Shown one piece after another: positions 542-15,651 of a stretch of DNA of 34,695 nt (position 1 is the stretch's first letter; every line of letters begins with the position of its first letter). Made by a program: the position numbers and the translations under genes. The stretch is taken from positions 1 through 34,695 of the forward strand of contig JAUNHC010000051.1 in NCBI GenBank assembly GCA_030524175.1. Reading direction: 5' to 3'. The stretch comes from Eubacteriales bacterium. Its GTDB lineage: Bacteria; Bacillota; Clostridia; Lachnospirales; Lachnospiraceae. The notes under the pieces were generated by a model. That model did not search any database, was not told the origin of the DNA, and saw only the letters and a program-made list of their open reading frames with translations.

Positions 542-1354
542 TCACACCGTCGGCTCTGGCTGCTCCCTGGCAGCCGCCTCTAAAGCAAACGTTACCCGAT
601 CCGTACCCAACTTATAATACACATCGGTCACCTCGATCCCTACTGCCTCGTACCCTTCCTCCACTGCGGCAAGAATCGTTGTCCCCGCCCCGGCAAACGG
701 ATCCAGGATCCTGCCGCCTGGTTCGCAGATCTGGATCACATCTTTCATCAGCTGGAGGGGCTTTTCTGTCACATGGATCCGGTTCTGGGGATTCCCATAG
801 CGGAACACTCCGGGCAGGCAGGATACCGGTCGGCTCACCGGCATCGGGCCGTTGCTCCCCCATACGATATATTCCGCCTGCTGGCGAAAACGGCCTTTCT
901 GCGGGCGGGAATTCCCTTTATCCCACACAGCCGTCCCACGCCAGATCCATCCTGCCCACTGCAGGGCATCTGTAATCGATGGGTACTGCCTCCAGTCAAT
1001 AAACAGGCAGATCGGCGCACCCTTTTTGCAAGCTTTCCTGGCATCATACAGCCATTCTGCCATCCAATGGGTCCAGGAACGCTGATCCTTGTTGTCTCCG
1101 TCAAAGTCCGGCAGTGCATTCTCCGCTTTCATGCTGCTGTACTTCTGATTTGTGGTCCGGTTGCGTTCATTCTGCTTAGTGCCTCCAGAAGCATACGGCG
1201 GATCTGTGACCAGGGCGTCAAAAATCCCCGGTCGGAATGCCTGCACAAGCTGCAGCGTATCTCCATGCAGGATACGCCAGCGCTCGCCGCCGACCGCTTC
1301 CACCGGGGCTGTTCCCTCCCTCAGTAAGTTTTCCAGTTGCAGGGTGTTCTCCAT
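542..1354 (-). CDS. DNA adenine/cytosine-N4 methyltransferase (beta class)
   Basis: This is a SAM-dependent DNA modification methylase. The catalytic motif IV DPPY is at residues 51-54 (ALVTDPPY), and the SAM-binding motif I FAGAGTT is near residue 218 (ILDPFAGAGTT). That order, with motif IV before motif I, defines the beta group of N6-adenine or N4-cytosine methyltransferases. At 270 residues it is typical for a small solitary methylase. The start at 1354 follows GAAAGGA with eight bases spacing; the frame is open to 1375 and overlaps the preceding gene. No restriction endonuclease is next to it, so it is probably an orphan methylase protecting the element from host restriction or marking its DNA. 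The element also encodes a SAM synthetase three genes upstream. Recognition sequence is unknown. Confidence 0.9.
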   Translation of the reverse strand: MENTLQLENLLREGTAPVEAVGGERWRILHGDTLQLVQAFRPGIFDALVTDPPYASGGTKQNERNRTTNQKYSSMKAENALPDFDGDNKDQRSWTHWMAEWLYDARKACKKGAPICLFIDWRQYPSITDALQWAGWIWRGTAVWDKGNSRPQKGRFRQQAEYIVWGSNGPMPVSRPVSCLPGVFRYGNPQNRIHVTEKPLQLMKDVIQICEPGGRILDPFAGAGTTILAAVEEGYEAVGIEVTDVYYKLGTDRVTFALEAAAREQPEPTV

Positions 1355-1371
1355 AGGCATCATCCTTTCCT

Positions 1372-1977
1372 TCATCGTTCTTTGTCATTCTTCTTGTTGC
1401 CTCTTGCGATATTCCGCTTCGGCGGTTCCAAGTCCCGCTGTTTTACCAAAATCCCCCGTTTTCCACTCTCAATAAGGATCATGTCCTGCGTTGGATTTAC
1501 CAAGGTTTCTCCCGGCAGAATATGGTCATTGATCACAAACCAACCGCAGACAGTTCCATAGATATGGCTGCTTCTCCCTATCACAGGCGCTTCCCCAGTC
1601 TCTGCTTTCTGGACCACTGCCTCTCCAGCCGCACGTGCATTTTCCTTTAATTCCCCACTTAATATGCAGCTATGCCCTTCTGCCTTTGCATACTCAAACA
1701 GCCTGGCGTCACCCCCAACCAATGCAGAATCCCTGGCCACCGTTCTGTCATACATTCTTCCATCTTTTGTGACCACCGCTTCTTCACAGCTGATTGCTTC
1801 ATCGTAGATCCATGAGGTTCCTTCCTGGGACAGATTTTCTTCTGACTGCACATATCCTCCCAGCATCCCCGGTTCTACCTGCTCATTTACCTTGCAAAGC
1901 GCCCGGATCCGATGCAGCCATGGGTATTTCGGATGGGAAATGTCGGTAATCTCATATTTTTTCTGGTTCATCTGCAT
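1372..1977 (-). CDS. Beta-helix (hexapeptide-like) accessory protein, 201 aa
   Basis: I do not recognise a biochemical function. After a short N-terminus (YEITDI) the protein contains LGGYVQSEENLSQEG, then TSWIYDEAI and alternating short hydrophobic turns (AVVTKDGRMYDRTVARDSALVGG). This resembles phage proteins with left-handed parallel beta-helix repeats that share a 'GDLGGFV..NLS..G..WV..DA' signature. The C-terminal half of the 330-residue protein at 15,923-16,915 is clearly its paralogue, sharing the LGGYVQ, NLSQ, GTSWIY and LVNP blocks in the same order. The start at 1977 follows AAAGGA. It overlaps the following methyltransferase frame region and the preceding 91-residue gene, so it is part of a tight operon. 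A structural or decoy role is possible but unproven. Confidence 0.7.
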   Translation of the reverse strand: MQMNQKKYEITDISHPKYPWLHRIRALCKVNEQVEPGMLGGYVQSEENLSQEGTSWIYDEAISCEEAVVTKDGRMYDRTVARDSALVGGDARLFEYAKAEGHSCILSGELKENARAAGEAVVQKAETGEAPVIGRSSHIYGTVCGWFVINDHILPGETLVNPTQDMILIESGKRGILVKQRDLEPPKRNIARGNKKNDKER

Positions 1978-2252: not shown

Positions 2253-3218
2253 CTACCTCTCCGGTGCTTTCTGCACCCTGTTCTTTTCTTCCTTCTTCCG
2301 TTTTGCGAGATCTGCATAGTCGGCCCCTTCTATTTGCGGCAGATTTGCAATCACCCGGTACTTCTTTTCATAGAATTTCTGGATATTGGAACACGCCCAC
2401 CGACCGGCGAAATCGTTATCTGTACAGATTTCGATCTCCTCAATCTCCGGATGGCGGGAAAGAAACGCTTCCAGCGCAGGCGGCTGTTTCATTTCCCGGC
2501 GGGCTTCCCCTTCCTTCGGTGCGCTGATCCCGCCCAGTTCCAGCCGGTACCGGTCCGGCCTTCCGCCCTCCAAAGACATATGAGCCAGGGCGTCAATACA
2601 CGCTTCGTAAACCGTCACCCGCCTGCTGACGGTCTGAGGCGGCACACAAAACGCATAGGCTTTTTCACTTCCCGCCTGTTCGATCTTGAAAGCTCTCCCT
2701 CCATTGTCATAGATCCCACGAAGAAAAGCGTATCGGGCTTTCCCACTTTCATCCCGGCCCACAAACACCGCATTATGGTAAGGGCTACTCTCATAAAGAA
2801 TCCCCTGCCGCAGACAGTACCGGATAACACTTTCACTGATCCCACGCCCGGATAGATACTGCAAGATCCTCCGGTTATTTCCATTGGGCTTCGGCAGCAC
2901 AAACGGTTTCTTTTCCGGCATGGGCAACTCCTGGGTAAAAGAAACAAACGCCCTCTCTTTAAGAAGGTTCACCGCTTCCATAAACCGGTATCCGTCCACC
3001 TCTATCAGGAAACGCAAGGCGCTGACCCCTCCAATATCCCTGGATTTCCAATGCCATTTGCTGTTCCTTTCATTAATCTTGAAGCTGTCATGGTCTGCCA
3101 GTTCCCATTCCCCAGCCGTCCTGGTTTTCTTCAGGCGGTCCGGCTGGCATTCCCTTAAATAATCATAAGCCCGGATCTGTTTGATCTCCCGGATCTGTTC
3201 TTCTGTGACCCAGGGCAT
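2253..3218 (-). CDS. DUF3991/Toprim primase-like protein
   Basis: This 321-residue protein has the layout of element-encoded primase-like proteins. An N-terminal part (VTEEQIREIKQIRAYDYLR) leads to a DUF3991 block near residues 50-125 (WHWKSRDIGGVSALRFL ... FMEAVNLL). A Toprim-like domain follows at about residues 200-290, with the acidic motifs YEACIDALA and EICTDNDFAG that would supply the glutamate and Asp-x-Asp metal ligands. No CHC2 zinc finger is evident, so it may depend on another primase or act in DNA end processing. The ATG at 3218 overlaps the metK stop codon (TGATG), so the two are translationally coupled. The codon at 3221 is TTG and less likely as a start. The expected role is in replication or transfer of the element's DNA. 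Confidence 0.8.
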   Translation of the reverse strand: MPWVTEEQIREIKQIRAYDYLRECQPDRLKKTRTAGEWELADHDSFKINERNSKWHWKSRDIGGVSALRFLIEVDGYRFMEAVNLLKERAFVSFTQELPMPEKKPFVLPKPNGNNRRILQYLSGRGISESVIRYCLRQGILYESSPYHNAVFVGRDESGKARYAFLRGIYDNGGRAFKIEQAGSEKAYAFCVPPQTVSRRVTVYEACIDALAHMSLEGGRPDRYRLELGGISAPKEGEARREMKQPPALEAFLSRHPEIEEIEICTDNDFAGRWACSNIQKFYEKKYRVIANLPQIEGADYADLAKRKKEEKNRVQKAPER

Positions 3219-4378
3219 CAAAGAATGGTATTCCGCAGGGCTTCCACTTGATCAGTCCGCTCCCACGGGAATTCCTTTCTTCCAAAATGCCCGTAAACAG
3301 CGGTCTGCTTAAAGATCGGCCGCTTCAGGCGCAGCGTTTCCATGATCTGGCCCGGCGTTAAGCCAAACACCAGCGGGATCGCTGCCGCAAGGCAGTCATC
3401 CGCACAGGCCGTCCCCGTCCCAAAGGTATCCACCTGTACCATGACAGGCTGCGCCACGCCGATGGCATAAGCAAGGGACACCTGGCAACGGCTGGCAAGA
3501 CCGGCAGCTACCATGTTCTTTGCAATATACCGGGCCATATAAGCGCCGGAACGGTCTACCTTGGAACAGTCCTTTCCAGAAAAAGCGCCTCCCCCATGCG
3601 GTACCATGCTGCCATAGGTATCCACCATCAGCTTGCGTCCGGTCACCCCGGTATCTGCATCCATCCCTCCGCAGACAAACCGCCCTGACGGATTGATATA
3701 GACTGCCGTCTCATCATCTGGAGGAAGCAGGCGCAGCGCTGGCGACAACACCTTATTTTTGATCTCCTGCTCCAGCTTCTTCCTATTTTTGTCTGCCATA
3801 TGCTGGCAGGATACCACCACGCTGTCCAGACGGACAGGGTATCCATCTTCATATTCTACGGTCACCTGTGCTTTCCCGTCCGGCAAGATCCCCTCAATGA
3901 AATGGCTCCGCCTGCTTGCTGTCAGTTCCCGGACAATCCGGTGTGCCAATACGACAGGCATCGGAAGCAGCTGGGGTGTTTCATTGCAGGCATACCCGAT
4001 CATGATCCCTTGGTCTCCAGCCCCTTTTTCCCAGCCTTCCTGATTGGAGGGAAGCCCGCTTCTCTTTTCCCTAGAACAGTCCACTGCCTTTGCGATATCC
4101 GGACTCTGTTTATGGATCAGGGCGTCCATCTGGATGTGTTCCGTAGAATATCCCACATCGGAAAGCACCTTTTCCATAATCGCAAGGACAGACGGCTCAT
4201 AAACACTGGTGATCTCCCCAGCCGCCAGAAGCGTTCCTTTTGTCGCCAGCACCTCGCAGGCCACCCTGGCTTCCGGGTCAAATTTCAGACAAGCGTCCAG
4301 AATGCTGTCTGCGATCAGATCACAGAGCTTATCCGGATGTCCTTCCGTTACAGATTCTGCTGTATAAAATCGTTTCAT
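3218..4378 (-). CDS. metK: S-adenosylmethionine synthetase
   Basis: The enzyme makes S-adenosylmethionine from methionine and ATP. It is full length (386 residues) and starts MKRFYTAESVTEGHPDK, where the TEGHPDK loop is the ATP-binding signature. GAGDQGIMIGYA (near residue 115) and GGGAFSGKDCSKVDRSGAY (near residue 245) are the other family signatures, so the active site looks intact. The ATG at 4378 follows AAAGGCAGG; the frame is open to 4429, but those codons cross the leader hairpin. A terminator-like stem at 4400-4436 lies in the leader. It is unusual for metK to sit inside a mobile element; here it precedes a primase-like gene by coupled translation and shares the run with a DNA methyltransferase. 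A broken copy of its leader and start lies at 18,245-18,345. Confidence 0.95.
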   Translation of the reverse strand: MKRFYTAESVTEGHPDKLCDLIADSILDACLKFDPEARVACEVLATKGTLLAAGEITSVYEPSVLAIMEKVLSDVGYSTEHIQMDALIHKQSPDIAKAVDCSREKRSGLPSNQEGWEKGAGDQGIMIGYACNETPQLLPMPVVLAHRIVRELTASRRSHFIEGILPDGKAQVTVEYEDGYPVRLDSVVVSCQHMADKNRKKLEQEIKNKVLSPALRLLPPDDETAVYINPSGRFVCGGMDADTGVTGRKLMVDTYGSMVPHGGGAFSGKDCSKVDRSGAYMARYIAKNMVAAGLASRCQVSLAYAIGVAQPVMVQVDTFGTGTACADDCLAAAIPLVFGLTPGQIMETLRLKRPIFKQTAVYGHFGRKEFPWERTDQVEALRNTIL

Positions 4379-4399
4379 AAATACCTGCCTTTCTCGAAC

Positions 4400-4436
4400 A
4401 AAAAAGCAGGATACATCCTTTTTGGACATATCCTGC
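4400..4436 (-). terminator. Terminator/attenuator-like hairpin in the metK leader
   Basis: On the minus strand a 13-bp stem runs from GCAGGATATGTCC through an AAAAA loop to GGATGTATCCTGC, with two G-U wobbles and no mismatch. Six U follow immediately. This is an intrinsic terminator by form, placed about 20 bases before the metK ribosome binding site, so it could end transcription from the toxin-antitoxin genes or act as an attenuator of metK. The same stem is kept, with consistent base-pair changes, in the broken copy at 18,313-18,345. No known SAM riboswitch fold was recognised upstream. Confidence 0.7.
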
Positions 4437-4525: not shown

Positions 4526-4876
4526 TTATGTTGGATAGGTATAGTTTTTTGTTTTTCCCAGTATTTTCCTCCAGTTCCGCTGTTCCCGCAATACCCGAAG
4601 AACATGGACTTCTCTTTGCTCCTCCAGCATAATGTAAAAAATAACAGAGGGCGGGAATGGCTTTTTATGGATCTCATAATTCCGGTACAGGATTCTGGTT
4701 TTGGGAAATCCTCCGCCTATGTAACCAAGCTGCTCCATTTCCTTTTTGATATCCTCCTGGAAACGGTCAGCCCGGTTTTTTCCAAATTCGGCCTCGATGT
4801 AATCAGAAATATCGGTCACATCATAGATGGCTTCCCATGTTAAGATCACCTTATACTCTTGCATTCCTTCTGGCAT
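4526..4876 (-). CDS. RelE/ParE-family toxin
   Basis: The protein is 116 residues, or 112 if it starts at the internal ATG at 4864 (MQEYKVILTWEA). It shows the RelE/ParE pattern: beta-strand YKVILTWEAIYDV, helical segment DYIEAEFGKNRADRFQEDI, a glycine-rich turn GGGFPKTRILYRNYEI, and C-terminal strands VIFYIMLEEQREVHVLRVL. Such proteins are either mRNA interferases (RelE) or gyrase poisons (ParE), and residues alone do not settle which. The start overlaps the end of the antitoxin gene, the usual order of antitoxin first. The pair probably stabilizes the element in its host. The start at 4876 versus 4864 is uncertain because GGA lies too close to the second ATG. Confidence 0.8.
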   Translation of the reverse strand: MPEGMQEYKVILTWEAIYDVTDISDYIEAEFGKNRADRFQEDIKKEMEQLGYIGGGFPKTRILYRNYEIHKKPFPPSVIFYIMLEEQREVHVLRVLREQRNWRKILGKTKNYTYPT

Positions 4877-5141: not shown

Positions 5142-5945
5142 TCATTCCCGAACAGCGATCACCAGATTTCTTGCCCCACTCCATTCATACGAACAGGTCA
5201 CCAAAGTCAAAACCTGATCCGCCTCATCGATATCGAAAGTTTCCCCATTGTCAAACAGTTCCAATCTTTTTGCCTGCCGCACATACTCTGCCAGGCCATC
5301 TGGCTCCGGAAAGAATGCCTGCTGGAACGGGAACACAGACACATCTGTTTTTAGGACTGCCGTCACCCGGTAAACCGCCACCCCATCTAAGGTCTGGAAA
5401 TAGACCAATGGATGTGCCTGGCAGTATTCTTTCTCTGCATACCGGTCCAGGTTCCCGAACATCACACCGCTGTTCATATTATGACCATAAACGACAAGGT
5501 TCTCTCCTTCCCGAACATCACAGTCCCATTGTAAGAAGAGGCTTCCGTTCACGTCCGGTTCCCCTTGGTAATTCCGATGGATATAATACTCCGGTTCCTC
5601 TGCACTGCTCTGAAGGACAGGGTAATCGATCCCCGTTTCCGGGATCATCAGCCAGCCCTGGATGTCTGGATACTGTTCCTGTAAAGACACAAGATCAACA
5701 AGCGGGGAAAGAGAGCCTTTTTTCCCAGCTGGTTTTTCTTTCCGTGCTAAAGGATCCGGGAGATCCTCTCCCGGAAAATCCTCTTTGATTTTCTCCACCA
5801 TCTTCCGGTTTGCTTCCGGCACAGCTACCAGATGATCATATAGGATTCCTGCACTGATTCCCAAAATCAGCAAAAGACCAAGCACAGACAACCGGTACAT
5901 CCAAGACCCTTTATCGCTCCTTCCCTTCTTTTTTCTTTCCCGCAT
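5142..5945 (-). CDS. srtB: Class B sortase
   Basis: This membrane-anchored transpeptidase cleaves a sorting signal and joins the protein to cell wall or to a neighbouring subunit. A basic N-terminus precedes one membrane segment near residues 19-38 (LSVLGLLLILGISAGIL). The catalytic histidine is in VVYGHNM (near residue 153), the cysteine in LVTCSYEW (near 252) and the arginine in ARNLVIAVRE (near 261). The spacing between His and Cys and the 267-residue length fit class B. The coding start overlaps the cyclotransferase gene by 35 bases; an alternative ATG at 5900 has a better ribosome site (AAAGGG, six bases). Its likely substrate is the giant SpaA protein two genes upstream. Confidence 0.92.
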   Translation of the reverse strand: MRERKKKGRSDKGSWMYRLSVLGLLLILGISAGILYDHLVAVPEANRKMVEKIKEDFPGEDLPDPLARKEKPAGKKGSLSPLVDLVSLQEQYPDIQGWLMIPETGIDYPVLQSSAEEPEYYIHRNYQGEPDVNGSLFLQWDCDVREGENLVVYGHNMNSGVMFGNLDRYAEKEYCQAHPLVYFQTLDGVAVYRVTAVLKTDVSVFPFQQAFFPEPDGLAEYVRQAKRLELFDNGETFDIDEADQVLTLVTCSYEWSGARNLVIAVRE

Positions 5946-6405
5946 TCCTTGCTTTCACTTCCTTTTGCGTCTGATAAACGGCTTCCATGACAGGCGTTAT
6001 AGAAAGGTTATTCTGTTCACAGCCTTCCAAAATCCCATTCAGATAAAATCCGGATGGGATTGCCGGAAAATCCTTATAAGGTTCCTTCATCACATAAACC
6101 ATAACCGCATAACTCTTTCCATCCTTTCCGGTGACATCATGCAGCTCTTTTCCATATAAATGGGGATATCCCTCATACCGGTCCAGGCGTCTCTCACAGT
6201 CCCCAGTGATCAGCCACATCACCCCATCCACATGGCTTCCTTTCTCCGGCAGAATCGTTGCTACCCCGCTGTTGGGATTCCGGCCGCCAAATGCCAGCCG
6301 GTAATTTTCCAACCGGACATTCTGGACAACCTTGGCATCCGGACACCGGAATTCCATTTGTCCTAAGTTCATGTTGCTGCCATAAGCAAAATACAGCATT
6401 TCCAT
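5911..6405 (-). CDS. Gamma-glutamylcyclotransferase-like protein (AIG2/GGCT fold)
   Basis: GGCT-fold enzymes release 5-oxoproline from gamma-glutamyl amines or peptides. The protein has 164 residues. The substrate-loop motif YFAYGSNMN is at residues 5-13, and the expected catalytic glutamate is in DRYEGYP near residue 80. Other family features are CPDAKVVQNVRLENYRLAF and the strand GVMWLITGDC. The C-terminal tail is lysine-rich and extends the usual 110-150-residue fold. GGAGG lies ten bases before the ATG. It sits 71 bases after the giant surface protein and overlaps the sortase gene, and the amidoligase is just upstream of the surface protein. This context points to removal or editing of glutamyl-type bonds made by the amidoligase rather than glutathione turnover. 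That role is inferred. Confidence 0.85.
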   Translation of the reverse strand: MEMLYFAYGSNMNLGQMEFRCPDAKVVQNVRLENYRLAFGGRNPNSGVATILPEKGSHVDGVMWLITGDCERRLDRYEGYPHLYGKELHDVTGKDGKSYAVMVYVMKEPYKDFPAIPSGFYLNGILEGCEQNNLSITPVMEAVYQTQKEVKARNAGKKKEGKER

Positions 6406-6436
6406 CTACCACTCACCTCCTTCCCATGGAAAGGGC

Positions 6437-6460
6437 GGAACCTGCGTTACGGCAGGCTCC
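6437..6460 (-). promoter_or_regulatory. Intercistronic hairpin between surface protein and cyclotransferase
   Basis: The minus strand reads GGAGCCTGC, loop CGTAAC, GCAGGTTCC: a 9-bp stem with one G-U pair. Only GCCCTTTCC follows, so it is a poor terminator. It may act as a partial terminator or an mRNA stability element that lowers expression of the two downstream enzymes relative to the giant structural protein. Confidence 0.5.
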
Positions 6461-6476
6461 CCCTTCCATATGGTTC

Positions 6477-9400
6477 TCAGCTATTTTTATGCTTCTTTCT
6501 TCTCCTATTGACTGTCAAACCAGCCAAGCCAGCTGCGGACAGTAAAAGTAAAGCCGCAGGCAGCCAGAGATTGGTGTCATCCCCGGTTTTAGGCACATCC
6601 GTTGCTTCTACTTCATCCTTCATGACAACTTTCTGGATCTCCGGCGTATCCTTTACTTCAAACGTGAGATCTTCCGCTACCAAATACCCCTCCGGGGCCT
6701 GTTCCTCACGCAGAGTATAGGTTCCTATGGGAAGTTTTTCAATATAGTGCGGTTCTTCTTCGGATACCCAGCTTTCTACCACCTTGCCCTCTTGATCCAA
6801 GATGGTCAGTTTTGCTCCAGGAAGCTCTTTCTTTCCTGTGATATCGGTTTTGCTGATCTCCACCTTCGTTACATCATCCTTCATTTCCACTTTCTGGATC
6901 TCGGCGGTTTTTTCCACCGTAAATACCACGCTTTCTGCAGTCACATATCCATCTGCTGGCGTAGTCTCTACCAGCGTGTACTCTTTTCCGGCTGTCAGCT
7001 CTTTGATCACATGGGGTTCCTTCTCCGATACCCATTCGTCTACCGTATTCCCGGCTTCATCCAGCACCTGGAGTTTTGCCCCCGGCAGTCCCTCCCCGGT
7101 TGTCAGGTCAGATTTTGTAAACTCTACCGTAGTCGGTTCGTTCTCAAAGGTAAATGCATAGCTTGCCTCTGCCTGTTCTTCTCCCTGATAGGTAAAGGTG
7201 AATTCCTGTTCTTCTCCTGTGGCCACAAAACCATCCGGAGCGTAAAGCTCTTTGATATAGTACGTTCCATCCACCGGAAGATCCGCCACGAACGTAATCT
7301 TACCGTCCTGGTCTGTTGTTTTTAATTCGATCAGGGTATCTGCTTCCATCAGGACCTTGCCGGATGCGGACAAAATATCCTCCCTGGTGTAAAGTCCGAA
7401 AACAGCGCCCGCTAGTACCCTATCGCCGTCTTTTTCTTTCTTCAGGACGGACACCGTTGCCTTCTGGCGGTCATTCTGCCAATCCTCATCGTAGACAACC
7501 ACCGGCGTATCCTGGTCACGATAGGTCAGGTCCACATATCTCGGTTCCTCATCCAGCACATGGCCATAGGCGGTACCAACCTCCACCACATAATACTTTC
7601 CAACCGGAAGATTCTCCACTTTTGCGATTCCCGCCTCATCCGTTATCACGGTAGCGACCAGTTCATCTGCCTGATAATAATCGGCGCTGACGCCATCTGC
7701 CGCCTTAATATCCTCCGCTGCATAAATCTCAAACGTAACATCCTTAAGGCTTCCAGTGATATAGTGGAAGATATGCTCCACAACTCCTTTGATCTGGCTA
7801 ACCAGGGTAACACGGTCAAGGAATTCTCCTTTTTTATTGACAATCAGTGTTGCCGTTGGCACCTCATCCTTCATTCTCACTTTTTGCACCTCTGCCGTAT
7901 CCTCTACGGTAAAAGTGACATCCGTCGCTTTCAAGTATCCAAACGGTGCGAAGGATTCCCGCAGAATGTAGGTTTCCCCTGCGGTAAGGTGTTTTATGAT
8001 ATGCGGTTCGTCTTTTACAGACACCCAGCTGTCCACAACCGTTCCGTCCTGGTCCAGCACAGACATCTCTGCACCAGAAAGCTCCACCCCAGTGGTAAGG
8101 TCTGCTTTTGTCACTTCCACGGTAGTCGGTTCATTTTTCTTTACCGCTTCCAGCTTGATTACCGGAACCTCCTGTCCTTGATAGGAAGCGTCAAACGACA
8201 GGATCTCATCCGAAGAAACAAAGCCGTCCGGGGCCTTTTGTTCTTTTACATAGTATTCGCCAAGAGGCAGATCCAAGGTAAAGGCTGCCTGGCCTTTTTC
8301 ATCACTCTCTACGGTTTCCAGCAGAGTATCTGCAGCTACAAGAACCTTTTCACCAATGGCAATATCCTTGGCATTATAAAGCCCAAACACAGCCCCCGCC
8401 ACAACGGCCTCTGTTTCTGCATCCTGCTTTTCTACCACAAGGCTCACTTTCTGACGCTCATTTGTAAACGTCACATCCTCTGTGATCACCGGCGTATCCT
8501 GCCCGTCATAGACAAATTCTACCTCTTTTGAAGATGCGTTTAAGACATACCCTTCCGGCGCAGTCACTTCTTTGATCTGGTACTTGCCAAGAGGCAGGTC
8601 CTCGATTACTGCTTTCCCCTCAGAGTCTGTGGTTACAGTAGCTACCAGTGTACCGGCGACATATTCCAGGTTCCGGTTCCCGGATGCATCTGCCTGATGG
8701 TCTGCCGTATAGATATCTTCTGCGGCGTATACTTCAAACACCGCTCCCTCAAGGTCCGCAGGCTCATAGCGGAAAACGCCGTCAAATCCGGACAGCACTT
8801 CCCCGTCTTTATGGATGACCAGCTCGCCTTTTGCCGGATGGTTCTCATATACCACTTCGATCAGGATGTCTTTACTTACAGGATCGATCTGATATGCGGT
8901 ATTGGAATCCACTTTGATCTCTACGGAAACCGGATTCTTCGTATATCCCTCCGGTGCGGTCACTTCCTCGATCCGGTAATTTCCCGGCCGCAGATTTTCC
9001 GGCAGGATCAGGTATCCCTCTCCATTGGTAAAATAAGAGGAATGCACCGTTGTCGTCGGATACGTGGTCACCTGCTCCACATATTTCTGGTTGTCCAGAT
9101 CAAAGACCTTAAATTCTGTATCTGGAAGAAGCACCGGCTGTTTTGTCTCGTCATCCTTTTTGATAATCTTCAGTTTTGCCTCGAACTCATCATCCAGCAG
9201 CACACGCCATACCTGCGGTTCCGGATCATCTTCCGTCACCGTTACCAGGAAATCATCCACCGGCGCAAAGTTATGGGGCGTCGTTGTCTCCCGGACAATA
9301 TAAACCCCATACGGGATCGCAATCGAGCAGGCATATCCCTTTTCATCAGTGAACATCTCCGTCTTGCCATCCTCTGTCAGCACAATCGGCTCTGCGGAGG

Positions 9401-12400
9401 CGAAGTCATAGGTTCCGTCTGCTTTCTTTTCAAGGCTGCTCACCAGATAGGCAGAAAATCCCACGCCGGATAATAAATCGGCATCCGTCTTTCCATTATC
9501 CGCTGCCTTGATCACCTGGAAAGGCTGCTTTTTCACCTTTTCTTCGGAGGTACAGGTGCGCTCTACCGTTTTTACCGTATCTCCTTCATAGCTGGCTTCT
9601 ATATCGTGTTCTTCCGGGTCCAGAAGATAGCCAGCCGGAGGCGTCAGCTCTTTGATATAATAGTTTCCAAGATAAAGACCGGTAACCTGGGCGTTTCCTT
9701 TTGCATCCACCGTCAGTGTTGCCACCTGAGTGCCAGCGGGATAAAGGACGCCAGTTTTTCCATCCGGATGCACAATATCCTCACGGGCAAACAATCCGTA
9801 AACAGCCCCTTCAAAGACCGCATCCCCCTGTGGGGTGCTTCCCGTCTCCTGGTCTTTCTTTACCAGGGAAATGGTTGCGTCCACACGCTCATTGGTGAAG
9901 GTATGAGTAAAGGCAATGGAAGCTTCCCGGTCATTCGTATAGAGAAAGGAAAACGAGTATACTTCCCCGCTATTGAGATAGTATCCCTCCGGCGCCTGCA
10001 GTTCTTTCACATAGTATTGGTTCCCTACCGGCAGGTCAGACTGGTAAACCGCACGCCCATCCTCTCCGGTAGTCACGGTTTCGATCAAGGTATCTTTCTT
10101 GACGATCACGTTCCCTGCCTGGTTCTTGATGTCGCTGCCTGCATACAGCCCATAGATTCCCCCGTCCAACGGGTTCTTTGTTTCATTGTCCTGCTTCACA
10201 ACCGAAACAGCCGCTTTCTGTCTGGCATTGGTAAAGCTTACCGTTCCTACCGCAGCCGTTACATTGCTTCCGGCATAGCTCAATGTGACATTTTGGGATT
10301 CCCCGGTGCATACCAGGTTTTCCGGTGCTTTCATTTCTGTTACGGTATAAGTCCCAAGATGAAGCTTATCCAAAGTGGCGCTTCCATCTTCTCCAGTAGT
10401 CAGCCCTTCTTTTACCAGGGCTCCTTTCCGATATACCGTTCGTCCATCTGCCGCCACAATATCCGAAGCAGCGTAGACATTATAAACCGCACCTTTCTGC
10501 CTCTGCTCCGTATAGGTAAAGACCACGCCATCATCTGTCACCTCGGCTCCGGTCAAGACCTCTCCGTTTTTATAAACAGTCAGGCTTGCCAGCTGTTCTG
10601 CATCGGTAACGGTTTTAGAAGTGGTCCCTCCCACCACGAGGTTGATGTTATAAGCAGCTGCGTCCAGCACATACCCAGCCGGTACAGAAATCTCTTTTAA
10701 ATATACCGTATCCTGTGTTTTCGTCAGGGTGACGCTGGATTTCCCCTTGGCATCTGTGGCGGGCATTTTCACAATTAACTTCGTGCAGGCGTTGTCACTG
10801 TAAATTCCATAAACCGCTCCAGCAATTGCCGCATTGCTTCCTTTGTCCTTTTTCGTGATCTCAACCGTTGCCATTTTTACCCAGTTTACTTTGAAATCCA
10901 CATATTTCTCATCATCTACGCCTTCCCCGAACACCAGGGCAAGATCCTGTGTGTCCGATCCGGTGGTGATCTTATAGGCGCTAAAGTCTTTGGTAATGCT
11001 TCCCTTCAGCGTCACAGACCATGCCCCCTGCACATCTTCCGCCTGTGTCAGCGGTGCCGAAAGATAAAACTTGGTCCCTCCGCTTACTTCTACCGCAGCT
11101 CCGGCCGCACTGGTCTTTCCGGTTGTCACGTTATGGAAGCGGACACCCTTCGGCAGCTTCATCGTAATGGTCTGCAGTTCGTCTGCCCGAAATGTGATCT
11201 CTTTGGTACGCTGGGAATTCCCATCTACATAAGCGGCCACATCCGGATCCGAAAAAGACATGGATACATCCGGGATATCCGGCTGGCTTACACAGTACTC
11301 ATAAAGCTCCATAGCCAGTGATTGGCCAGTAGAGTTGGTTCCGGAAAACGCATCGCTGCTTCCATTGGCATAAGCAGCTGCCAGATGGGTGATGATGAAC
11401 CGTTTCCCCGCTGAAAAATCCGGGTGCTTGTCTGTAAAGAAGCCGTTTTCCCCGCTGGCCTTCGTGCCATAGTAGCACACTTTCGCCAGATTTTTTCCAT
11501 CGGAAAGCTTCTGGATGGTATATACGCCATCCCCTGGTCCAGGTTTGGACGGCTGTACACAATAGGCAGTCGCCGTCACGCTTCCAAATCTGACGGTATA
11601 AGGATAGGTCACATAGGAGCCCAGCCCATAATCTGCATAATAATAGGCGCTTCCCCTTGTCACATCCACGCTTTGGTTCCCGGCTCTTGTCTCTGCCATA
11701 AACGTCATGGTTTCCCCTGCCTCAAGGGAGAAAAGGCTCTTTTCTTCCTCCGCAGCCTGTTCCATTACCTCCGACAGAGACAGCCCGCTTTCCTCATCCA
11801 TCGTATCCTGATCCTGTGTTTCCTCAAGCGCTGCATCCAGGTCATCCTCGGTCAATTCTTCCGATGGTGCAGGCTCCTCATCAGTCTGGGAAGTCGTCTG
11901 CCCCTCTTTCGCTGGCAGCTGTTCTGTCTCTAACTGCTCATCCTTTAAGCCCTCTGTGCGTTCTGTTTCACGCTCCCCTTCGTCCATAGTTTCTTCCGTC
12001 TGTCCATCCTCCTGGCTTTCCAGATCCGTTTCCACTGTTTGTGTAACCGTCTCCAGAGTTTTTACCACCAGGTTCCTGCTGATTTGATAAGTCGGATGGT
12101 CTGTTGTTTTGGGGTCTACATAATAGACAGCCTGATAAGTATCCTCATGGTCTGTAGTGAATGCTTCCCCTTCTGCATTTTTCGCTTCCTGGAAGGTGAC
12201 CTTGACTTTCTCATTGTTTATAATATCAATGCCTGAAAAATCACAGGTTACATCAAAATCACTGCCCACTTCAATGGTATGGTCATGGGCAATCACCACT
12301 TCATCATCGTCCAGCTGATCCTTGATCGCCTTATAAAGCGGAGGCTTTTGCTCTCCCGGATCTGTCTCCGCCGCTGATACAGTAAGCGGCGATACTACGG

Positions 12401-12467
12401 CAGAAAAAACCGTAACCGCAGCCAGAACCCCGGAGAGGATCTGTTTGATCGTTCGTTTCATTTTCAT
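6477..12467 (-). CDS. Giant SpaA/Cna-B repeat surface protein with sortase signal
   Basis: A 1,996-residue secreted and wall-anchored protein. The N-terminus MKMKRTIKQ plus a hydrophobic stretch ending VSAAE is a signal peptide. A Glu/Thr-rich linker spans about residues 140-250. Near residues 300-365 is a thioester-domain-like region (AYCVQPSKPGPG, KVCYYG, ITHLAAAYA). From about residue 534 I count some 13 SpaA/Cna-B domains, each opening with a 'K-DxxT...L.GA.F.LY' strand and closing with 'YYVKE..AP.GY', the layout of domains with internal Lys-Asn isopeptide bonds. Three of them (about 1444-1535, 1776-1862, 1866-1952) are very alike. The end has VPKTGD, a hydrophobic helix and RRRKKHK, a sortase sorting signal. 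The start at 12467 gives the best spacing from AAAGGA; 12479 and 12554 are alternatives. Probable role: adhesion or cell-cell contact during transfer. Confidence 0.92.
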   Translation of the reverse strand: MKMKRTIKQILSGVLAAVTVFSAVVSPLTVSAAETDPGEQKPPLYKAIKDQLDDDEVVIAHDHTIEVGSDFDVTCDFSGIDIINNEKVKVTFQEAKNAEGEAFTTDHEDTYQAVYYVDPKTTDHPTYQISRNLVVKTLETVTQTVETDLESQEDGQTEETMDEGERETERTEGLKDEQLETEQLPAKEGQTTSQTDEEPAPSEELTEDDLDAALEETQDQDTMDEESGLSLSEVMEQAAEEEKSLFSLEAGETMTFMAETRAGNQSVDVTRGSAYYYADYGLGSYVTYPYTVRFGSVTATAYCVQPSKPGPGDGVYTIQKLSDGKNLAKVCYYGTKASGENGFFTDKHPDFSAGKRFIITHLAAAYANGSSDAFSGTNSTGQSLAMELYEYCVSQPDIPDVSMSFSDPDVAAYVDGNSQRTKEITFRADELQTITMKLPKGVRFHNVTTGKTSAAGAAVEVSGGTKFYLSAPLTQAEDVQGAWSVTLKGSITKDFSAYKITTGSDTQDLALVFGEGVDDEKYVDFKVNWVKMATVEITKKDKGSNAAIAGAVYGIYSDNACTKLIVKMPATDAKGKSSVTLTKTQDTVYLKEISVPAGYVLDAAAYNINLVVGGTTSKTVTDAEQLASLTVYKNGEVLTGAEVTDDGVVFTYTEQRQKGAVYNVYAASDIVAADGRTVYRKGALVKEGLTTGEDGSATLDKLHLGTYTVTEMKAPENLVCTGESQNVTLSYAGSNVTAAVGTVSFTNARQKAAVSVVKQDNETKNPLDGGIYGLYAGSDIKNQAGNVIVKKDTLIETVTTGEDGRAVYQSDLPVGNQYYVKELQAPEGYYLNSGEVYSFSFLYTNDREASIAFTHTFTNERVDATISLVKKDQETGSTPQGDAVFEGAVYGLFAREDIVHPDGKTGVLYPAGTQVATLTVDAKGNAQVTGLYLGNYYIKELTPPAGYLLDPEEHDIEASYEGDTVKTVERTCTSEEKVKKQPFQVIKAADNGKTDADLLSGVGFSAYLVSSLEKKADGTYDFASAEPIVLTEDGKTEMFTDEKGYACSIAIPYGVYIVRETTTPHNFAPVDDFLVTVTEDDPEPQVWRVLLDDEFEAKLKIIKKDDETKQPVLLPDTEFKVFDLDNQKYVEQVTTYPTTTVHSSYFTNGEGYLILPENLRPGNYRIEEVTAPEGYTKNPVSVEIKVDSNTAYQIDPVSKDILIEVVYENHPAKGELVIHKDGEVLSGFDGVFRYEPADLEGAVFEVYAAEDIYTADHQADASGNRNLEYVAGTLVATVTTDSEGKAVIEDLPLGKYQIKEVTAPEGYVLNASSKEVEFVYDGQDTPVITEDVTFTNERQKVSLVVEKQDAETEAVVAGAVFGLYNAKDIAIGEKVLVAADTLLETVESDEKGQAAFTLDLPLGEYYVKEQKAPDGFVSSDEILSFDASYQGQEVPVIKLEAVKKNEPTTVEVTKADLTTGVELSGAEMSVLDQDGTVVDSWVSVKDEPHIIKHLTAGETYILRESFAPFGYLKATDVTFTVEDTAEVQKVRMKDEVPTATLIVNKKGEFLDRVTLVSQIKGVVEHIFHYITGSLKDVTFEIYAAEDIKAADGVSADYYQADELVATVITDEAGIAKVENLPVGKYYVVEVGTAYGHVLDEEPRYVDLTYRDQDTPVVVYDEDWQNDRQKATVSVLKKEKDGDRVLAGAVFGLYTREDILSASGKVLMEADTLIELKTTDQDGKITFVADLPVDGTYYIKELYAPDGFVATGEEQEFTFTYQGEEQAEASYAFTFENEPTTVEFTKSDLTTGEGLPGAKLQVLDEAGNTVDEWVSEKEPHVIKELTAGKEYTLVETTPADGYVTAESVVFTVEKTAEIQKVEMKDDVTKVEISKTDITGKKELPGAKLTILDQEGKVVESWVSEEEPHYIEKLPIGTYTLREEQAPEGYLVAEDLTFEVKDTPEIQKVVMKDEVEATDVPKTGDDTNLWLPAALLLLSAAGLAGLTVNRRRKKHKNS

Positions 12468-12550
12468 GGTTTTCTTCATCCTTTCAAAAATTAAGCCGGA
12501 CAGAGATTTTTCCCGTCCGGCTGACCTGATTTCTTTCCTATTTTGTTTTA

Positions 12551-13510
12551 TCACCGGGAAGTTTCTTCCTGGTTCCGTTGCTGCAGGGATGGATATTGGC
12601 TCCTATCATAACGCCATGCCCGGTCCCCCTCCAGATTTTTCAGAAGATGTTCCCGCACATTTTTATATTCCGGGCCAATTAATCCAAGCCTTAACAAAAA
12701 GGTCCGGAAGGTGAACGCTGGATTTTCAGATATTTCTGTTTTCCGCATCTGCGTACACTTCTGGTTGATCGCCTGTGCGGAAATCGCCAGCGCCAGCGTA
12801 ATGTTCGCCCGTACCTTCCCTGCATGGAGCGTGCTTTCAAAACATCTCCATTCCAAGGTTCCCTTGGAGAACACTGCATGGAGGTTTAAGGCATAGTACC
12901 GGCTCCAATCATAATGCTGATGGCTCCTGTCCCGCCCTTCATACCATGCTAGTTTCAGTTTATCCATAGAGAGCGTGCTATTGGGCATTTTCCGGATCTT
13001 TTCCAACACTGCTGGACGTACTTTTTGACAATAATTGACCTCCCTGGATGTCCGTACCTTCAATGCCTTGAACAGGATATCTTCTTTGGAATACATGATC
13101 GTCATAGCGTTCTTTAGGCTCCGGGCAGTATGGTTCGAGGCATCCACATGGACGTGCTGGCCGCAGGAAGAATTGACAAAGGCTCCATGGCGACGCAGAC
13201 AGCGCACCACTGCCTGCAGCTTTCCCATTTCAGAATACTCCAGCTTTGGGCTGACCATTTCTGTGCGGTATGCGCTATCGCAGATATCCACTTTGATCCC
13301 CCTCACCTTCCTCTGGGTACGGATACTGGAATCGTTGGAAAATTTCCATTCTTTTCCCTGTGGGTCCCTTACACACCAGGAGTCATACGGATCCCTGTGA
13401 TAGTGGCCTGTCTGGAACAGTTCCCCGACCGCCTCCGCTGCACCTCTCCTGGTGATCCCCGTCATCTCAATCTCTGTACCAAAGTATTGATTCCGAAGGT
13501 CAAGTGACAT
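12551..13510 (-). CDS. Amidoligase family protein (COOH-NH2 ligase, glutamine synthetase-like fold)
   Basis: The 319-residue protein matches the Amidoligase_2 pattern. The metal/ATP-binding FGTEIEMTG is at residues 10-18. Next come the acidic-basic strand YRTEMVSPKLEY (near 82), CGQHVHVDAS (near 115) with the paired histidines, and TLEWRCFESTLHAGKV (near 235), the arginine-containing strand of the family. These enzymes are thought to join a carboxylate to an amine using ATP; the substrate here is unknown. The gene lies directly before the giant surface protein, with a cyclotransferase and a sortase after it, so modification of the surface protein or a wall peptide is the favoured idea. Its start overlaps a broken methyltransferase fragment. 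Confidence is high for family, low for substrate. Confidence 0.85.
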   Translation of the reverse strand: MSLDLRNQYFGTEIEMTGITRRGAAEAVGELFQTGHYHRDPYDSWCVRDPQGKEWKFSNDSSIRTQRKVRGIKVDICDSAYRTEMVSPKLEYSEMGKLQAVVRCLRRHGAFVNSSCGQHVHVDASNHTARSLKNAMTIMYSKEDILFKALKVRTSREVNYCQKVRPAVLEKIRKMPNSTLSMDKLKLAWYEGRDRSHQHYDWSRYYALNLHAVFSKGTLEWRCFESTLHAGKVRANITLALAISAQAINQKCTQMRKTEISENPAFTFRTFLLRLGLIGPEYKNVREHLLKNLEGDRAWRYDRSQYPSLQQRNQEETSR

Positions 13511-13685
13511 ATCCCAGATCCTCCTGCTTCAGTTCTGCATCTGCCAAGGCACCGGAACACTCCCCCTTATGCTTATGGATACTGGAATCCTGCCTGGTAT
13601 CCTCAAATCCCCCAGCTCTTAAAAGTCCTTCCCGGACTCCGTCAAGCCCGCTGAATAGATCAAAAAATCGAATCGTTCCGGCTAT
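13500..13685 (-). pseudogene. Remnant of a C5-cytosine DNA methyltransferase N-terminus
   Basis: One minus-strand frame reads AGTIRFFDLFSGLDG followed by VREGLLRAGGFE, which matches the SAM-binding motif I start of Dcm-type methyltransferases (usual form IRFFDLFSGIGGFREGL). There is no ATG: the codons ahead of the motif are ATA-GCC-GGA-ACG behind a good GGGAGG site, and the family Gly-Gly is Asp-Gly. After GGFE the sequence no longer resembles the family and the frame stops at 13,500, eleven bases inside the amidoligase gene. I read this as a deletion remnant joined to the amidoligase leader. Confidence 0.65.
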
Positions 13686-14425: not shown

Positions 14426-14725
14426 CTAAAATCCCCCATCTTTTTCCATCCCGGAAAGGAAATTCAGCATCTGGTCTGGAATAACATCGTCCGCCTCCCC
14501 TTTCTGTTCCTTCGGAAACAAAGACACTTCCTGAAGTTCTTCCCGGATAATCTGCCGAATGGAAGCTTCCAGTTTTTCCCTGTCCTCCAGCTGTAAGATT
14601 GCCTGGACAAGAAAGGCATTCTTCTGCCTTCCCGGAACATTTTTCAGGATCTCCCAAGCCCGCTTATGCGCTGGATCCTCCAGTGTCGGACGGAAAGAAA
14701 AAACGGGCCGGCTCACCTGGCGCAC
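14426..14725 (-). CDS. ParR-like partner of the ParM actin homologue
   Basis: The 99-residue protein is basic at the N-terminus (RQVSRPVFSFRPTLEDPAH), has a helix-rich middle (KRAWEILKNVPGRQKNAFLVQAIL) and an acidic, amphipathic C-terminus ending SGMEKDGGF. Position and size match ParR-type adaptors, which bind a centromere through ribbon-helix-helix dimers and contact ParM filaments with the C-terminal tail. It starts at a GTG that overlaps the end of parM by 13 bases, typical of parMR pairs. The centromere is probably the inverted-repeat cluster upstream of parM. Sequence similarity alone would not identify it; the call rests mainly on context. Confidence 0.65.
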   Translation of the reverse strand: MRQVSRPVFSFRPTLEDPAHKRAWEILKNVPGRQKNAFLVQAILQLEDREKLEASIRQIIREELQEVSLFPKEQKGEADDVIPDQMLNFLSGMEKDGGF

Positions 14726-15621
14726 ATCTGCCCTACAATCCGTTCATACCCGGCAGCGTTGGCCTTTACGTCTGTCAGGTAGAACGCCCGGCAAACCCCG
14801 TCCTGGGGCGCCACATGGCGTTTCATAATGGCAGCTCCCCCTCCGATAAAAATCGTGGGAATAGCCCGCAGGTCAAACCCAGCCTCCATGATGGCAGACA
14901 AAATCCGTTCCGTATAACTGCGTCCATTTCCCTGGATGATTTCCTTCGCTTTCGCATCCAGGCTGCAGTTGTTCCCATTCAGGATCCGCTCAATCTGGAT
15001 GTCCGTTACAGACAGCCCGGTACTCCTGCGCACCTGTTCCATCGTCTCATCAATGCAGCGGATCACGCCAAGCTCTAAGCTTCTGCAGGTAGCCGCATTG
15101 GGAACCGCATTATCTAAACGCATCAGGTCTACCGTCCAGCCTCCAATGTCCACCAGAAGAACGGACGGCTCATCCCGGACATACTCCGGATGGAGAGCCA
15201 GGGCTGAGTATCCCTGCGGGAACAGTTTGACATCCTCAATGGTAAGCTCATACGCTTCCTTCTCATACCGGAAACACAAGGGCTGCTCTTTCCGGAACAG
15301 ATACTGTCGAAAAACTGTTTTTTCCCTGCCGAATCCAGCAAGTGGAAGCCCTGCCGCAAGAATGATTTTTTCTTTTTGCCCGGCTTTGCGGTACTTCAAT
15401 TCCTGTGCCAGAGCCGCCATCGTCAAAAGATAGTAATTATCATTAGCGGTCTTATCCTTCATAAGCGTCTGCCGTCCGGTACCGCAGACATAAAACACCC
15501 CCTCATACTCCAGCACATTCTGCATAGTATAGGGTTCATACTCATATCTGGAGAGTCCCGTTGGGAAACAGATATGTGCGGTTTTCATGGCATAATAACC
15601 ATGGTCGATTCCAATGATCAT
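14713..15621 (-). CDS. parM: ParM/StbA-family actin-like ATPase
   Basis: The 302-residue protein has the actin-fold nucleotide motifs in order: phosphate 1 GIDHGYYAMKT at residues 4-14, phosphate 2 VLLVDIGGWTVDLM near 155-168, and the adenosine motif TIFIGGGAAIMK near 265. The region GNGRSYTERILSAIMEAG lies between them, as expected. ParM proteins form filaments that push sister plasmids apart; on integrative elements they are thought to help keep the excised circle. The ATG at 15621 is preceded by AAGGAGG with eight bases spacing; the upstream codon at 15630 is GTG and too close. The gene is coupled to parR and preceded by a hairpin at 15,652-15,677. Confidence 0.85.
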   Translation of the reverse strand: MIIGIDHGYYAMKTAHICFPTGLSRYEYEPYTMQNVLEYEGVFYVCGTGRQTLMKDKTANDNYYLLTMAALAQELKYRKAGQKEKIILAAGLPLAGFGREKTVFRQYLFRKEQPLCFRYEKEAYELTIEDVKLFPQGYSALALHPEYVRDEPSVLLVDIGGWTVDLMRLDNAVPNAATCRSLELGVIRCIDETMEQVRRSTGLSVTDIQIERILNGNNCSLDAKAKEIIQGNGRSYTERILSAIMEAGFDLRAIPTIFIGGGAAIMKRHVAPQDGVCRAFYLTDVKANAAGYERIVGQMCAR

Positions 15622-15651
15622 AGATTCCACCTCCTTATAAGATTTTTAAAG

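Follow-up and report, generated by a model that had tools for sequence, protein, structure and literature searches.

A contig of an Eubacteriales bacterium (Lachnospiraceae; GCA_030524175.1, JAUNHC010000051.1) carries four adjoining genes, for an amidoligase (AL), a giant surface adhesin, a protein of the gamma-glutamyl-cyclotransferase fold (GGCT) and a sortase. Such a neighborhood raises the question of what the ligase and the cyclotransferase act on, and whether the adhesin encoded between them, or the wall peptide to which it is joined, is their substrate, as the sequence-only reading had proposed. The window analysed here, 34,695 nucleotides long, is the entire contig, which ends inside the element.

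The four genes and their element

The four ORFs are closely spaced on the minus strand, and both the packing and the families first named for them were confirmed by ORF positions and Pfam profiles. AL (12551..13510, minus strand, 319 aa) contains the PF12224 Amidoligase_2 domain, with 205 bits against a cut-off of 22. Its predicted model (pLDDT 94) is closest to YbdK and plant GCL/glutamate-cysteine ligases, and then to glutamine synthetases and Dop. By this model AL belongs to the GCS/glutamine-synthetase ligase fold, although it shares only 11-12% identity with YbdK and the glutamate-cysteine ligases, and it is most likely an ATP-dependent carboxylate-amine ligase, as predicted from its fold and conserved residues. 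A PDB sequence search with AL returned no relative, except for one chance-level match to a lectin. The deep AL alignment comprises 46 of 55 non-redundant ALs, and no second domain was found in the N-terminal extensions that some ALs have.

GGCT (5911..6405, minus strand, 164 aa) matches PF06094 GGACT with 53.7 bits (cut-off 22.8). Its Glu78 is kept in all 162 rows of the alignment and the GSN of the YGSN motif in 161. Human GGCT structures were matched by phmmer, Glu78 being aligned with the catalytic glutamate of the human enzyme. The protein would most likely release 5-oxoproline from a gamma-glutamyl substrate. Since Glu78 is kept and the AL fold lies near glutamate-cysteine ligases, a pair that makes and breaks gamma-glutamyl bonds is plausible.

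The sortase (5142..5945, minus strand, 267 aa) has the PF04203 domain (54.8 bits, cut-off 26.6) and an N-terminal membrane anchor. Its catalytic triad is well conserved, with His155 in 36 of 36 rows, Cys251 in 35 and Arg259 in 34. It had been called class B and does resemble TIGR03064 (118 bits), but we call it only class-B-like because this score is under the equivalog cut-off of 153.75; the sortases of L045 and L025 are also below it and that of L186 is above. AL, GGCT and the sortase are all without a match in PADLOC. Export-type hydrophobic segments are present in the adhesin (best 19-residue hydropathy mean 2.11) and close to the N terminus of the sortase (2.04), and none was found in AL or GGCT, with best means of 0.99 and 0.74.

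The adhesin (6477..12554, minus strand, 2025 aa counted from GTG) contains PF17802 SpaA in 13 stretches, the PF20610 thioester domain (TED_2) and an LPXTG-type anchor. The description of a SpaA surface protein with a sortase signal was therefore borne out, while its thioester domain had been missed. The ORF starts with GTG at 12554, but the ATG at residue 26 (12479) has GAAAGG ahead of it and a signal-peptide-like stretch, hydrophobic at residue 39, after it, and looks like the likelier start. At the other end, the sorting motif VPKTG (6582..6596, minus strand) is followed by a hydrophobic stretch and a basic tail, so that the protein has both a signal peptide and a sorting signal. It also has the thioester-domain fold of TIE adhesins. 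The bond would form between Cys332 (codon 11559..11561, minus strand), kept in 56 of 60 sequences, and the candidate partner Gln536 (codon 10947..10949, minus strand) of a TQDLALV motif, of a kind found in 35 of 60. We rejected the idea of a thioester domain with invariant Cys and His and no Gln partner, which came from an alignment of the Pfam stretch, because this stretch stops too early and the Q motif lies 204 residues beyond the Cys. The thioester alignment comprised 39 of 42 sequences. Six TED_2 thioester-adhesin matches (C93, C4, C12, C102, C92 and C19) are present in the genome of the window, one of them with AL, and this genome has a single AL.

A similar adhesin, Sec-exported and combining a thioester with CnaB domains, is encoded by the conjugative plasmid pLS20 and is required for efficient conjugation, with 188 residues between its Cys and the distant Gln (204 in the window adhesin). 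According to PMC8092201, the pLS20 protein lacks both a sorting signal and a sortase, whereas the window adhesin has the two.

Neither a relaxase nor a transfer channel was detected in the window contig. The conjugative nature of its element is deduced from the relative G027, since the 87,933-base contig of the latter carries a relaxase, VirD4, a VirB4-like ATPase, a wall hydrolase and integrases. The backbone genes of the window, all on the minus strand, encode an N6/N4 DNA methyltransferase (542..1375, PF01555), a DUF3991/toprim protein (2253..3221, profile match), the neighboring methionine adenosyltransferase MetK (3218..4429; TIGR01034, 466 bits, and Pfam) and a ParM/Alp-like actin (14713..15630, PF17989). 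A ParE-like toxin gene lies between MetK and the sortase (4526-4876, minus strand). Comparison with L107 and others revealed the remnant of a C5-cytosine DNA methyltransferase at 13503..13685 (minus strand); in most members of this element family the gene is full length and immediately precedes AL (PF00145 in L107). Two records of "Bacteriophage sp." (MT836328.1 and MT837293.1) have ALs 71-72% identical to that of the window, as ALs of the conjugative family are, and judging from this they are possibly fragments of conjugative elements filed as phage. In the plasmid collection, one AL record was found.

Conserved and exchangeable parts of the block

Relatives of AL were gathered from at least 80 loci on genome contigs, at least 80 on viral contigs and 100 same-family genomes, and profiles made from these loci were used to search their flanks. 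AL was found in 10 of the 100 family genomes, two of which (G000, that of the window, and G027) were also among the TED_2-positive genomes. The genome set has 82 rows (the window, L025 and L107-L186, L025 being on the same contig as L117), and the counts that follow refer to the matches listed. An unbroken run of all four genes is present in 22 of 82 loci, or in 21 of 81 if L025/L117 is counted once, and a set that recurs in this way is not due to chance. They appear in two orders, AL being followed by SpaA-GGCT-sortase in 11 loci and by GGCT-SpaA-sortase in 11. The conserved linkage on which the first proposal depended is thus present, since one family of conjugative elements keeps the four gene families together as a block, with the adhesin on either side of GGCT. 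Another 11 of 82 have GGCT-SpaA with no detected sortase, two have SpaA without GGCT (one on a truncated contig) and three have nothing recognised after AL. The commonest state, with 44 of 82, is AL-GGCT with no adjoining adhesin, followed by MetK, toprim or the contig end. No sortase was recognisable in the gaps inspected after SpaA; the one ORF scanned there, in L132 (16743-17132), is a DUF3846 protein placed between SpaA and MetK instead of the sortase, and ORFs similar to it by eye are present in L128 (10348-10752), L139 (17968-18348) and L143 (17354-17698).

The 177 ALs among the matches listed form 39 clusters at 70% identity, with truncated contigs included unless stated. GGCT is found up to 1 kb from AL in 36 of 39 clusters and a DNA methyltransferase up to 3 kb in 28. 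Within 9 kb, MetK is present in 10 clusters, SpaA in 7 and sortase in 4, and in the 15 clusters with 9 kb on both sides these counts are 6, 4 and 2. An unbiased clustering of neighbors, again for the matches listed, also ranked GGCT first (30 clusters), followed by the N6/N4 methyltransferase (20), the C5 methyltransferase (19) and terminase (18). In a terminase-anchored control, a filter on flanks and orientation left 61 of 158 phage loci, 47 with AL and 14 without; GGCT is found in 25 of the former and in none of the latter (p 0.0003). AL and GGCT are thus the conserved unit, while the adhesin is exchangeable.

The exchange is visible in the window itself. Its thioester domain shares 78-86% identity with the domains of six loci without AL or GGCT (L048, L052, L053, L057, L068 and L076), and 29-35% with those of the sister elements L042, L045, L110, L112 and L124, whose AL (71-76%), MetK (72-78%) and ParM (71-76%) are close to those of the window. 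The window sortase shares 48-58% identity with those of the four sister elements where a sortase was found, and 23% with the L053 and L057 sortases, which adjoin adhesins related to that of the window. These identities indicate that the adhesin is swapped wholesale, whereas AL, GGCT, the sortase and backbone genes stay with the element. Fifty-five thioester-adhesin loci were inspected, the strongest matches besides those of the window and G027, several of them cut by contig ends; both AL and GGCT are absent from 45, and the remaining 10 are members of the element family of the window. The adhesin is also the outlier in pairwise-distance correlations over 12 non-redundant loci, whose pairs are not independent and are too few to decide: rho is 0.83 for AL-sortase (36 pairs), 0.55 for AL-Dcm, 0.50 for AL-ParM, 0.34 for AL-GGCT and 0.14 for AL-thioester domain. 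Under a strict partnership AL-GGCT would be expected to correlate best, and it does not, bearing in mind the non-independence of the pairs.

With moderate confidence, we suggest that two independent modules lie side by side on a conjugative element, an adhesin with its sortase and a cytosolic AL with GGCT, whose target would not be the adhesin. In the first, the adhesin would be exported by Sec, stiffened by isopeptides, tipped by an N-terminal thioester and anchored to the wall by the sortase, and it could hold mating cells together, by analogy with the pLS20 adhesin. The sortase would travel with the element and serve any adhesin present. In the second, AL, of the glutamate-cysteine-ligase fold, would use ATP in the cytosol to join glutamyl or a comparable carboxylate to an amine, and GGCT, of the cyclotransferase fold, would split the gamma-glutamyl amide again as 5-oxoproline, as their folds and conserved residues suggest. 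Their target would most likely be either a small amine or an intracellular peptide of a wall precursor, rather than the adhesin. Where a new surface-modifying step of conjugative elements had been proposed, the comparison with relatives suggests two separate adjacent kits. Several observations speak against such a division: the linkage is old within the element family, with AL, GGCT and SpaA together in both orders; 22 of the 82 AL loci (among the matches listed) keep all four genes; rho is higher for AL-sortase than for AL-GGCT; and L142, L475 and 22 of the 47 AL-positive terminase loci (a count that includes the short AL paralogue) have AL but no GGCT. In addition, SpaA and sortase genes lie several kb from AL-GGCT in some MobL elements.

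AL and GGCT in phages and transfer operons

Amidoligase_2 proteins were reportedly paired with AIG2/GGCT proteins in Firmicutes by Iyer et al. in 2009. The pair known from mobile DNA of Firmicutes has the same families, adjacent or nearly so; the window differs in the adhesin gene between AL and GGCT and the sortase after them, and the relatives described here are also found in transfer operons beside VirB4 and NlpC/P60. That 2009 work is cited for the pair in PMC11318856, which places AL beside AIG2/GGCT in C. clostridioforme prophages, and of PMC11253131, where the Terrisporobacter prophage TPDSL_ph1 has two amidoligases and then GGCT. The likeness of this AL-AL-GGCT block to the window is AL with GGCT, but it belongs to a phage with a second, short AL, and the region is shown there without adhesin or sortase. 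In module B of Tn6164, the printed table (PMC3485107) already gives the neighborhood of MetK, methylase, AL and GGCT seen here, with prophage orf18-24 encoding a terminase small subunit, MetK, an N4/N6 methylase, a hypothetical protein, an amidoligase, AIG2/GGCT and a terminase. It is a phage region and the table lists no adhesin or sortase alongside, whereas the window has both. A literature search at the level of titles and abstracts, with subscription journals outside it, returned no report of AL-GGCT inside transfer operons or of AL with sortase/SpaA. The AL-GGCT link is thus already published, and its placement inside transfer operons was not found in the literature searched.

In the 80 viral contigs listed, GGCT lies up to 1 kb from AL in 74, SpaA up to 9 kb in one, and sortase in none; six annotated phage regions all have AL and GGCT, and none has SpaA or sortase. 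Many phages have another, shorter amidoligase paralogue ahead of AL, up to 1.5 kb away in 45 of the 80 viral contigs listed. It is found in L187 (5110-5874), L189 (5899-6627), L029, L030 and L033-L036, and the L187 copy matched PHROG 2443 with no Pfam score.

In a second conjugative family, AL-GGCT belongs to a transfer operon that also encodes VirB4 and an NlpC/P60 wall hydrolase; this holds for 24 of 177 AL loci and 6 of 39 clusters among the matches listed. Within these 24 loci the pair lies between VirB4 and NlpC/P60 in 17 and just after the hydrolase in 7, and a search for a MobL relaxase was positive in 22. One example is L175 (8116-12738), which also has a reverse-transcriptase gene (89-2119), perhaps of a group II intron, about 8 kb upstream of AL. 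The loci L026-L028 were taken as phage candidates and rejected, being a conjugative operon instead. From 15 new VirB4-anchored loci, 14 were usable: AL and GGCT stand between VirB4 and NlpC in 7, AL occurs without GGCT in 2, and neither is present in 5, which indicates that the slot is accessory and can be empty.

Candidate targets

It is possible, although we consider it rather unlikely, that AL attaches an amino acid or amide to a cytosolic peptidoglycan precursor, that GGCT is able to undo this step, and that the wall so changed aids mating, guards against the element's own wall hydrolase or excludes rival elements and phages. The position of the pair on either side of the hydrolase in the transfer operons is consistent with it, and so are the gamma-glutamyl bonds present in peptidoglycan stems. 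An earlier proposal that the amidoligase of phage phiEco32 modifies the wall against superinfection, repeated in passages of PMC11318856 and PMC11253131, points the same way. However, VirB4 and NlpC/P60 are adjacent without AL in 5 of the 14 usable loci, and therefore this neighborhood comes with the slot; a special link of AL-GGCT with NlpC/P60 was rejected for this reason. Moreover, the wall hydrolase lies outside the cassette in the element family of the window.

It is improbable that AL-GGCT works with the surrounding DNA methyltransferases and MetK in DNA modification or anti-restriction. The methyltransferases close to AL in 28 of 39 clusters (among the matches listed), and the C5 enzyme directly upstream of AL in the element family of the window and in phages, would fit such a role. 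However, most of these genes are present without AL too in the terminase-anchored loci, which led us to reject the link: the C5 methyltransferase is found in 23 of 47 loci with AL and 9 of 14 without (p 0.37), and MetK in 22 of 47 and 9 of 14 (p 0.36). The N6/N4 methyltransferase, in 47 of 47 and 11 of 14 (p 0.01), shows a weak dependence, in loci that are not independent. Most MobL operons have no adjacent methyltransferase.

That AL adds amino acids to the SpaA adhesin or crosslinks it, with GGCT editing the product, is very improbable and this partnership is not supported: the gene spacing is close enough for co-expression, the adhesin gene comes immediately after AL in 11 of 82 loci and the four genes form an unbroken block in 22 (among the matches listed), but the adhesin is exchanged independently of AL while GGCT, the sortase and backbone stay, AL-GGCT lacks a nearby adhesin or sortase in phages and part of the second conjugative family and an adjoining adhesin in 44 of 82 genome loci (among the matches listed), 45 of the 55 best-matching thioester-adhesin loci have neither enzyme, and ATP-dependent enzymes without export signal would face an exported substrate.

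We therefore return to two neighboring modules, in which the conservation of AL with GGCT and the exchange of the adhesin remove the surface protein as leading candidate substrate. The wall precursor is the most interesting candidate. In a broader and more doubtful proposal, AL-GGCT could be a reversible gamma-glutamyl tagging system of mobile DNA, shared by two conjugative families and phages, that modifies a host cell-wall precursor during DNA transfer. If so, this tagging would govern mating, shield from the element's own wall hydrolase or exclude competitors, and the window cassette would be one site where it is coupled with a thioester adhesin and a sortase. The orphan AL-GGCT pair gains recurring contexts in transfer operons, between the VirB4 ATPase and a wall hydrolase, and harmless gut commensals are a place to seek its substrate there.
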